Part shown: piece by piece, positions 18,564 through 21,615 of the stretch
How positions within the stretch are numbered: position 1 is the first letter of the stretch
How the letters are laid out: every line of letters starts with the position of its first letter
Assembly (NCBI GenBank): GCA_030425825.1
Contig: JAUHZY010000001.1
Span: 1,460,834 to 1,524,833 of the forward strand
Length of the DNA: 64,000 bases
Source: Alphaproteobacteria bacterium
Lineage (GTDB): Bacteria; Pseudomonadota; Alphaproteobacteria; JAUHZY01
Direction of reading: 5' to 3'
The notes under the pieces: generated by a model
Database searches by the model: none
The model's input: the letters and a program-made list of their open reading frames with translations, nothing else
What the model was told of the DNA's origin: nothing
Program-made: the position numbers and the translations under genes

Positions 18564-18600
18564 CAAATAAAAGAAAGCCGCCCCGCATAAACGGAACGGC
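18564..18600 (-). terminator. Rho-independent terminator after the pilin-like gene pair
   Basis: On the minus strand a 9-bp stem (GCCGTTCCG with CGGGGCGGC, two G-T pairs) around a TTTATG loop at 18577-18600 is followed by TTTCTTTTATTT. It lies 57 bases past the stop of the 18657-19001 gene and just ahead of the tRNA-Phe promoter region. Confidence 0.8.
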
Positions 18601-18620
18601 CCTCTTTTTTAAGTAAATAG

Positions 18621-18656: not shown

Positions 18657-19001
18657 CTAGTTAAGGAAGTTAATCAGTGCTTGGAAGGCAGCAAGTAGGA
18701 ATAAACCACCAGCTAACATAAACAACCACTGGAATTTGAACTTACCCATTGCGGCCATGATCACAAGAGCAATCAAACCAAAACCAGCAAGAACATATGT
18801 GATATTACGCGTATATTTGTGCGCTGTATCAATTCTAGAAGATGCAACATCTAGGAATGTATTGTCTTCAGGAACTGTTCCAAGTGTGAAGTCTGATGTC
18901 CCAGCAGGACCAGAAACACTAAGTTGTGCGTCAGCAGATGTAACCATCACACCAACCGACATAAATAACGCAAACAATATAGTCATAAACTTATTCATCA
19001 T
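18657..19001 (-). CDS. Small VirB2/TrbC-pilin-like membrane protein, copy 1
   Basis: The 114-residue protein has a signal peptide (likely cleaved after TSADA), a short polar stretch and two hydrophobic segments (about residues 66-83 and 88-108), the layout of VirB2/TrbC pilins. Its last 61 residues match the neighbouring 19093-19554 product at 31 positions in a gap-free alignment by hand, sharing D..H.Y.R, AA.GKF, and AAFQ.LI.FLN. No other type IV secretion gene is seen in the window. GGGAGA precedes the ATG and a terminator follows. Pilin identity is an inference from size, topology and local resemblance; an unrelated family of small envelope proteins is possible. Confidence 0.6.
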   Translation of the reverse strand: MMNKFMTILFALFMSVGVMVTSADAQLSVSGPAGTSDFTLGTVPEDNTFLDVASSRIDTAHKYTRNITYVLAGFGLIALVIMAAMGKFKFQWLFMLAGGLFLLAAFQALINFLN

Positions 19002-19092
19002 AAAATCTCCCGTTTGAATTGTGACTATTAAACAACCTTCAAATTAAAAGGTCCAGAAAAAAAACACTTATGCCAAATCCCCACCGCCTTTC

Positions 19093-19554
19093 TTAGTTTA
19101 AAAAGTCGATTAATTTTTGGAATGCTGCTATCAGGAACAGTGATCCAACCATTGAAAAAAACCAAACCCAGCGGAACTTCCCGATAGCCGCCAAGATCCC
19201 AAGCCCCAGTACGCCAATACCAGAACCAACATAAAACATTTGTCTTAAATACTGATGCGAAACATCAGAACGGTCTTGTGCCGTACAGAAGAAGCTGTCA
19301 ACAGATTGTTGTTGGCCAAACTGACGGTACCCTTGGGGGTCATTAATAATGTTTGGATTTCTTGCATTTTGTGGTGCACAACCACCACCGCCAAGCCCAC
19401 CGCCGCCACCAAAGATGCCGCCAAGAGGGTTTTGCCAAGTGATGTCAATATCAAGCTGCGCACGCGCATCAACAGGTGTGAATGCAAATACTGCAAAGAT
19501 AAGAAAGAATTTAATTAAACTTTTAAAATAATACCTACTCGAAGAAGGTTCCAT
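19093..19554 (-). CDS. Small VirB2/TrbC-pilin-like membrane protein, copy 2, with Gly-rich segment
   Basis: This 153-residue paralogue of the next gene has an N-terminal hydrophobic segment with probable cleavage after DARA, a Gly-rich stretch (GGGGGLGGGG, about residues 50-60), two cysteines (about 61 and 93) that could form a periplasmic disulfide, and two C-terminal membrane segments (about 106-124 and 127-147). The C-terminal 61 residues are half identical to copy 1. It starts 18 bases after aroC with AGGAGA ahead of the ATG, so it is likely transcribed with fabI-aroC; 91 bases separate it from copy 1. Function unknown. Confidence 0.58.
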   Translation of the reverse strand: MEPSSSRYYFKSLIKFFLIFAVFAFTPVDARAQLDIDITWQNPLGGIFGGGGGLGGGGCAPQNARNPNIINDPQGYRQFGQQQSVDSFFCTAQDRSDVSHQYLRQMFYVGSGIGVLGLGILAAIGKFRWVWFFSMVGSLFLIAAFQKLIDFLN

Positions 19555-19571: not shown

Positions 19572-20651
19572 TTAAACCGATGACTTCATCATAGCTTTAT
19601 GCCTCAACAGATGATCTGCTAATACACAAGCCATCATGGCTTCACCGACTGGGACTGCTCGGATGCCAACACATGGGTCATGTCGACCTTTTGTTCTGAC
19701 TTCCGTGTCCTTAAGATCCATTGTAACAGACTTTTGAGGTAAAAGTATAGAGCTTGTGGGTTTAATGGCAAACCTAACCACAATGTCTTGGCCTGTTGAT
19801 ATGCCGCCAAGCAGCCCTCCAGCTTGGTTTGAGCCGAATTTAACTTTTTTATTTTTTATTTCCATTTCGTCACAATTTTCTTCTCCACGCAAAGAAGCGG
19901 CACCAAATCCTGCACCAATTTCAACCCCTTTTACAGCATTTATGCTCATCATTGCTTTTGCTAGGTCTGCATCTATCTTGTCATAAACAGGACAGCCAAG
20001 CCCAACGGGAACGCCGCTGGCAACAACTTCTATTACAGCACCAATAGAAGACCCTTCTTTACGAATGCCATCTAAGTATGTTGCAAATTCATCAACAATT
20101 CCTGCATCGGGCGTAAAAAAGGGATTATTATCAACCTCATCCCACTCCCAATTATCACGATTAATATGTTTTTCGCCCATTTGAACGAGTGCCCCACGAA
20201 TTTTTATGTCCGTTCCCAAGATTTTACGTGCAATCGCACCTGCTGCAACACGCATAGCTGTTTCACGCGCAGAAGATCTTCCGCCACCACGATAATCACG
20301 AATACCATATTTTTCTTGATATGTATAATCGGCATGCCCAGGGCGGTATGTGTTTTTAATCTCTGAATAGTCTTTTGAGCGTTGATCTTGGTTCTCGATC
20401 AGCAAGCCAATAGGTGCCCCTGTCGTTTTCCCTTCAAAAACACCGGAAAGAATTTTCACTTGATCAGGCTCTTGGCGCTGGGTGGTGAATTTAGACTGTC
20501 CTGGGCGACGCTTATCAAGGTGCTTTTGAATATCTTCTTCGCTGATATCTATAAGAGAAGGCACGCCATCGACAATGCACCCTATAGAAGGGCCGTGGCT
20601 TTCACCAAAGGTTGTAAAACGAAAAAGATGGCCGAAGCTGTTCCCAGCCAT
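19572..20651 (-). CDS. aroC: Chorismate synthase
   Basis: AroC makes chorismate from EPSP using reduced FMN, the last step of the shikimate pathway. The 359-residue product has all three family signatures: [14 protein letters not shown] (about residue 16), [18 protein letters not shown] (about 124) and the C-terminal [18 protein letters not shown] (about 318). The start is ATG 20651 (MAGNSFG); a TTG two codons upstream is less likely. fabI lies 12 bases upstream on the same strand, a pairing often seen in alphaproteobacteria. Confidence 0.97.
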
Positions 20652-20663
20652 AATCAAATCTAC

Positions 20664-21479
20664 CTAATCTTTAGCAATTGAAATGTCGGGCGCATCAAGG
20701 GCTTTCATGCCGACGATATGATAGCCACAGTCAACATGATGCGTTTCACCTGTTACGCCTTGTCCAAGGTCACTTAAAAGATAAAGCCCTGCGCCACCAA
20801 CATCTTCTAGTGTTGTGTTGCGTTTTAGAGGGGCATTATATTCATTCCATTTGAAAATATATCTAAAGTCGCCAATTCCTGATGCTGCAAGCGTTTTTAA
20901 AGGCCCTGCAGAGATGGCATTGACACGAATATTATCTTTTCCAAGGTCTGCCGCTAGATAGCGTACACTTGCTTCCAAGGCTGCTTTTGCGACGCCCATT
21001 ACATTATAGTGTGGAAGGACACGCTCACCGCCAAGATATGTCAGCGTAACCATGCTGCCACCATCAGTCATCATTTCGCGTGCACGTTTTGCAACTGCTG
21101 TGAAAGAGTAACATGAAATGTCCATTGTGTTTTGGAAGTTTTTGCGGCTTGTGTCGACATACTCTCCTTTTAGTTCTTCTTTATCAGAATAACCAATAGC
21201 ATGTACAAGAAAGTCGATTTTACCCCACTTTTCTTTGACTTCGTTAAAAGCACGATCAATATCCTCATCACTTGTCACATCACAAGGGACAACAACATCG
21301 GACCCAATTGATTCTGCAAGCGGATAAATTCTTTTCTCCAAGGCCTCACCTTGGTATGTAAAGGCGATTTCTGCCCCCTGGGCATGAAGCGCTTGGGCAA
21401 TGCCCCATCCAATTGAACGATTATTGGCAACGCCCATAATAATGCCGCGCTTGCCTTTCATCAAATTACCTTCTGTCAT
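20664..21479 (-). CDS. fabI: Enoyl-[acyl-carrier-protein] reductase (NADH)
   Basis: FabI reduces enoyl-ACP in the last step of each fatty-acid elongation round. The 271-residue protein contains [16 protein letters not shown] (NADH binding, about residue 16), [13 protein letters not shown] and the catalytic Tyr-x6-Tyr-x6-Lys array in [20 protein letters not shown]. The ATG at 21479 was chosen because the upstream GTG at 21494 lacks room for a ribosome binding site. It heads the fabI-aroC-pilin-like run and is divergent from the SH3-domain gene. Confidence 0.96.
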
Positions 21480-21615
21480 GTCTAAGACTCTCACCTAAAA
21501 ATGTTGTTCAAAAATTTCTAATGAAGCAGATTCTAACACCATGTTTTTGTAAACATCAAGCATAAGGTCTTTATTATAGCACGATGATCTGTTATTTGTG
21601 GTGCAAAGGAAAAAC

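Follow-up and report, generated by a model that had tools for sequence, protein, structure and literature searches.

Two probable VirB2-type pilin genes behind fabI-aroC and their dispersed paralogs in an alphaproteobacterial genome

Results

The window, that is, the whole stretch of 64,000 nucleotides analysed here, carries two adjacent small genes on its reverse strand: gene A (18657..19001), encoding a protein of 114 aa, and gene B (19093..19554), encoding one of 153 aa. Both are intact open reading frames, and the hydropathy of their products agrees with what an earlier note on this DNA had described, namely a signal peptide followed by two membrane segments. Gene B starts 17 bases behind aroC (19572..20657), which in turn lies 6 bases behind fabI (20664..21494); both are on the same strand as the pair and are 64% and 62% identical, respectively, to the aroC and fabI genes of a relative (locus L099, see below). 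The gap between B and A is 91 bases. Genes A and B have good ribosome-binding sites (GGGAG and AGGAG), and an 18-bp hairpin resembling an intrinsic terminator (18569..18608, reverse strand; region z-score -7.8) closes the unit ahead of tRNA-Phe. Given the short gaps, the ribosome-binding sites and the position of the hairpin, genes B and A look like the tail of a single fabI-aroC-B-A unit. As the earlier note had remarked, the pair follows fabI-aroC without any VirB or Trb component nearby: no vir or trb gene was found in the window, and the virB3, virB4, virB6, virB8, virB9, virB10, virB11 and virD4 genes of this genome all lie outside it.

In both proteins the hydropathy profile displays an N-terminal segment like a signal peptide and two further hydrophobic segments. 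The signal-peptide-like segment comprises residues 1-25 of A (18927..19001, reverse strand; hydrophobic at 5-23, cleavage placed by eye between ADA and Q) and residues 1-32 of B (19459..19554, reverse strand; hydrophobic at 10-28, cleavage placed by eye between ARA and Q). The two hydrophobic segments span residues 67-85 and 92-110 in A, and 106-124 and 131-149 in B, with a short basic loop (GKFKF or GKFRW) between them. They belong to a core formed by the last 61 residues of each protein (18660..18842 in A, with the loop GKFKF, and 19096..19278 in B, both on the reverse strand), in which alignment confirmed 31 identical residues and no gaps. In a search of this genome, A as a query retrieved B at E = 8e-18; the similarity is therefore not due to chance. 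Protein B is the copy that had been described as Gly-rich with two cysteines: its Gly-rich stretch covers residues 44-59 (19378..19425, reverse strand) and ends in Cys59, and the only other cysteine is Cys90. Paralogs of 154, 189 and 140 aa likewise carry two cysteines in the stretch that runs from the signal peptide to the first helix, so that a periplasmic disulphide would be plausible. An AF2 model of A, built from a three-sequence alignment, places helices at residues 2-19, 48-84 and 90-113 with low confidence (pLDDT 57.6), including those of the core. A Foldseek comparison of this weak model with the PDB returned no meaningful fold match, only three chance hits with E > 6. Given this low confidence, the prediction is informative only as to where the helices lie.

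When the genome was searched with A or B, a family of 11 genes with 13 domains emerged at four sites on the same contig (C2). Apart from the window pair (C2:1479.5-1480.4 kb), these are a six-gene cluster (C2:1162.7-1165.6 kb) in which one gene encodes a three-domain protein of 304 aa, two genes flanked by a PmbA-like and an MsbA-like gene (C2:385.5-386.5 kb), and one 140-aa gene adjoining rplU/rpmA (C2:1538 kb); the neighbours of the latter two sites were named by eye. Pairwise identity among the copies is 21-55%, indicating that they are old. The closest copy to A is not B (45%) but the gene at 1538 kb, 59 kb away (55%), which suggests that the pair is no simple recent tandem duplication. 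Calling A and B a paralogous pair understated the case, as they are two of 11 genes and A has a closer relative than its neighbour. None of the 11 genes is disrupted, each encodes a signal peptide and the core motif, and seven core positions are invariant among ten of the domains; in copies this old, such invariance speaks for continued selection. The two-helix core is common to the 11 genes, while the segment between the signal peptide and the first helix varies. Close to the six-gene cluster, two encoded proteins contain abundant GGxGxD repeats of the calcium-binding RTX type (L021:6558-9430, equal to C2:1168.6-1171.4k).

Taken alone, A and B gave nothing above the cut-offs of Pfam and NCBIfam. 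The VirB2/TrbC profile PF04956, with a cut-off of 27.9 bits, scores A at 9.7 bits (E = 1.3) and B at 13 bits (E = 0.12). The three-domain paralog passes the cut-off (32.9 bits) and the 140-aa gene at 1538 kb falls just short of it (26.2 bits). Across the wider family, including the relatives described below, PF04956 recognises 60 of the 72 members at E <= 0.01, with a best value of 1.6e-12. The profile comparison that had been proposed as a check therefore supports the family and its three-domain paralog, not A and B on their own. No solved VirB2 structure was found by sequence, and the family profile gave only a chance hit against the PDB.

Relatives were surveyed in 385 genomes of the same class (Alphaproteobacteria), none of them from the order of the host, using a profile of the pilin core (A2). 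The family was found in 33 of these genomes. In 25 of 34 relatives' loci, a pilin gene or array precedes virB3 and/or virB4 on the same strand at a distance of under 1 kb. In locus L099 (genome G242), the order is fabI-aroC-five pilin-like genes-virB3-virB4, where VirB4 reaches 30.4 bits on PF03135, against a cut-off of 21, and VirB3 scores 22.1 on PF05101, just short of the cut-off of 23.9. In another locus (L093 in G010), three pilin genes precede virB3-virB4, two further genes, virB8, virB9 and a lipoprotein gene related to secretin. Moreover, the six-gene cluster has a helix-turn-helix (HTH) gene beside it, and a relative of that gene adjoins pilin-virB3-virB4 in two loci, L102 and L123. 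The fabI-aroC and HTH synteny suggests that two sites in the present genome once held the operon. The simplest reading of these gene orders would be that the machine part was lost from, or moved off, both sites and that the pilin genes stayed.

The family also co-occurs with the VirB4 type found next to it. This VirB4 type is present in 37 of the 385 genomes; 30 genomes have both it and the pilin, three have only the pilin and seven only the VirB4 (Fisher p about 1e-34, a value to be taken only as a guide because kinship is uncorrected and the genomes are not independent). Weak pilin matches in G078 (L126), G105 and G330, all with E >= 2e-4 and in genomes without this VirB4, are probably due to chance. 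Three genomes of 0.9 Mb from one family (G068, G187 and G359) have this VirB4 type at about 825 bits, and no pilin of this family was detected in them; their VirB2 may be too divergent for detection.

The cognate machine is present in the same genome as the window. The relatives' VirB4 profile matches C5:4792-7233 at 1064 bits, and the start of contig C5 carries a block with virB3 (96 aa; PF05101 18.4 bits, below the cut-off of 23.9), virB4 (821 aa), a small lipoprotein gene, virB8 (PF04335, 74.2 bits), virB9 (PF03524, 91.5 bits), a secretin-domain lipoprotein gene after virB9 (C5:946-2346, L129; PF00263, 60 bits) and a gene for a 252-aa protein. This block adjoins lon. Its gene order corresponds to that of L093, minus the pilins: no pilin gene was found among the genes of the block. 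The genes virB10, virB11 and virD4 lie at the right end of C2 (PF03743 128, PF00437 79 and PF02534 187 bits), and a gene for a VirB6-like protein of 741 aa, recognised by a profile from two relatives, stands apart from the other vir genes at C2:1557-1560 kb. PF04610, the Pfam profile for VirB6, found only conjugative VirB6 and not this chromosomal gene. Hence virB4, virB6, virB10 and virD4, the genes for which the earlier note had proposed a genome-wide scan, all have counterparts here. Only one VirB4 of this type and one VirB6-like gene were found in the genome. The window pair is about 77 kb from the VirB6-like gene and 175 kb from virB10.

The same TTCTGC repeat terminates C2 on its right side and C5 on its left; it is absent from the other contig stretches examined, and an open reading frame that starts on C5 (VSEEDKKEEPAEDKQPEAEAEA...) runs into the Ala-Glu repeat that an open reading frame on C2 leaves. 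Accordingly, C2 and C5 probably join at this repeat, where the two halves seem to be one gene divided by an assembly break. The secretion system would then be a single locus, in which virB10-virB11-virD4 face, and converge with, the virB3-virB9 block. Conjugative loci are separate from it: a P-type trb locus on C11, and F-like tra genes on C6 (identified by eye) with a second TrbI match on C8.

Discussion

Several lines of evidence indicate that the products of genes A and B are probably two pilin subunits of the VirB2 type, belonging to a chromosomal type IV secretion system (T4SS) that is otherwise encoded elsewhere in the genome. First, the family precedes virB3-virB4 in relatives. Second, a cognate machine is present in this genome. 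Third, the machine's own locus contains no pilin gene. Similarity to VirB2/TrbC at the level of the family and T4SS genes in the genome were both found; the earlier note had named the absence of both as grounds for rejecting the pilin idea. Of its two suggestions, the data favour pilins that work for a type IV system encoded far away, as in lineages whose virB2 genes are scattered, and the comparison of neighbourhoods that it recommended contributes the synteny with virB3-virB4 and the fabI-aroC context in G242. By analogy to VirB2, A and B would be exported through the Sec pathway and lose their signal peptides, and the mature proteins would sit in the inner membrane as two-helix hairpins whose basic GKF/GRF loop faces the cytoplasm. 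Extraction of the pilin and its polymerisation into a channel or pilus would then fall to VirB4 and VirB3. Together, the 11 genes may supply alternative or mixed subunits, a mixed or switchable set, and their diversity is located in the segment expected on the periplasmic or surface side. That A and B make a pilus is an inference, as are their processing, the mixing of subunits and any cargo of the system.

It is also conceivable, though improbable, that A and B are relics: virB2 copies stranded where the operon used to lie, after virB3-virB4 had moved to their place beside lon. They would be intact but no longer belong to the machine, whose pilin would come from one other copy. A, B and further copies could also be remnants in little use at an old operon site. 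Most T4SSs need only one or a few pilins, and the pair occupies a site where a relative keeps the whole operon, both of which are consistent with this scenario. Against it, not one of the 11 genes has decayed or lost its signal peptide or core motif, A and B retain ribosome-binding sites and a terminator, and the core positions are conserved in spite of the age of the copies. Equally unlikely in our view is a regulatory or assembly role, in which A and B, as VirB2-like proteins of the inner membrane, would modulate the T4SS or pilus instead of forming its major subunits, the true pilin being one other copy. Specialised roles would fit the large variation of the periplasmic segment and the fused multi-domain forms, but A is among the more consensus-like members, its nearest relative being the 140-aa gene whose TrbC score falls just below the cut-off. 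We reject as very improbable that A and B are pilins of the conjugative elements, which do exist in the genome (the trb locus on C11 and the F-like locus on C6/C8), because the trb locus encodes a TrbC of its own (60.8 bits), a short pilin-like gene (identified by eye) is already present in the C6 locus, and relatives pair the pilin family with a different, chromosomal VirB4 type. Finally, a new and unrelated family of envelope proteins, resembling VirB2 only as any two-helix hairpin does, would agree with the sub-threshold scores of A and B alone and with the empty fold search, but we regard this alternative of the earlier note as refuted by the family-wide TrbC matches, the adjacency to virB3-virB4 in 25 loci and the co-occurrence with VirB4 across genomes.

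As VirB2-type pilins, then, A and B appear ordinary in kind and unusual in number, arrangement and architecture. Like VirB2/TrbC proteins (PF04956), they have a signal peptide and two membrane helices (from hydropathy, with AF2 helices of low confidence) joined by a short basic loop. Their relatives are encoded directly upstream of virB3-virB4, and in this genome the machine is encoded elsewhere. Unlike typical members, those in the window score below the profile cut-off, and the family displays long variable periplasmic segments and fused proteins with two or three pilins. Since T4SS pilins can escape standard profiles and lie far from their machine, inventories of T4SSs may undercount them.

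Tick-borne Rickettsiales are known to have expanded VirB2 sets, and their variable surface pilins are believed to play a part in infection. The genome analysed here shares with the Rickettsiales rvh system an expanded virB2 set and the division of the vir genes among several islands, here with the virB6-like gene apart. The rvh system also has duplicated virB4, virB8 and virB9 and several extended virB6 genes; the present genome yielded one VirB4 of the cognate type and one VirB6-like gene. In Anaplasma phagocytophilum, 8 to 15 divergent VirB2 paralogs with hypervariable segments are present per genome (PMC3556328). Both genomes thus have many divergent VirB2 paralogs and T4SS genes in separate chromosomal clusters, but in Anaplasma the paralogs form one cluster with virB4-2, whereas here they occupy four sites, none beside virB4, and virB3-virB4-virB8-virB9 form one block with a secretin gene, with virB10-virB11-virD4 facing it. 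In Rickettsia, the T4SS archipelago consists of five chromosomal islets, and virB2, apart from the other vir genes, was mapped as one of them (PMC2653234). The location of virB2 away from the other vir genes is shared with the present genome; the 11 virB2-type genes at four sites and the VirB6-like gene unrecognised by PF04610 are not.

Multiple virB2 genes and scattered vir genes are therefore already known in Rickettsiales (PMC2653234, PMC3556328). Apparently new, at least to us, are the dispersal over four sites, the fused two- and three-pilin proteins, the VirB2 domains in very long proteins and the secretin gene inside a virB operon; a limited literature search, which is no proof of novelty, found nothing on point about fused VirB2 pilins or a secretin within a virB operon. 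A similar, more dispersed VirB2 expansion with fused pilins in other alphaproteobacterial lineages could be used to test whether VirB2 diversity predates intracellular life.

Fused proteins with two or three pilins measure 304 aa in the present genome, 327 aa in L095 and 217 aa in L099. In addition, very long proteins with a single VirB2-like domain in the C-terminal half are encoded in two relatives' loci: one of 570 aa (L054:3972-5681), whose gene adjoins a VirB6-like gene, and one of 1073 aa (L107:2454-5675). A speculative and rather doubtful extension of the pilin reading is that the VirB2 fold serves as a module for display and mixing, with a filament or channel built of many subunits that differ from one another, among them pilins fused in tandem and pilin domains with long extra domains such as these two, and crossing the outer membrane via a dedicated secretin. 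A T4SS with its own secretin, encoded inside the virB operon, would be unusual. There is some likeness to type IVB pilus genes, which include the PilN secretin and PilO: a secretin-domain lipoprotein gene follows virB9 here, and a secretin and PilO (PF06864) are encoded near the pilin-virB3-virB4 block of L098. Unlike type IVB pilus loci, the L098 surroundings contain no recognised type IV pilin, and in the present genome the secretin gene sits in the virB operon itself.
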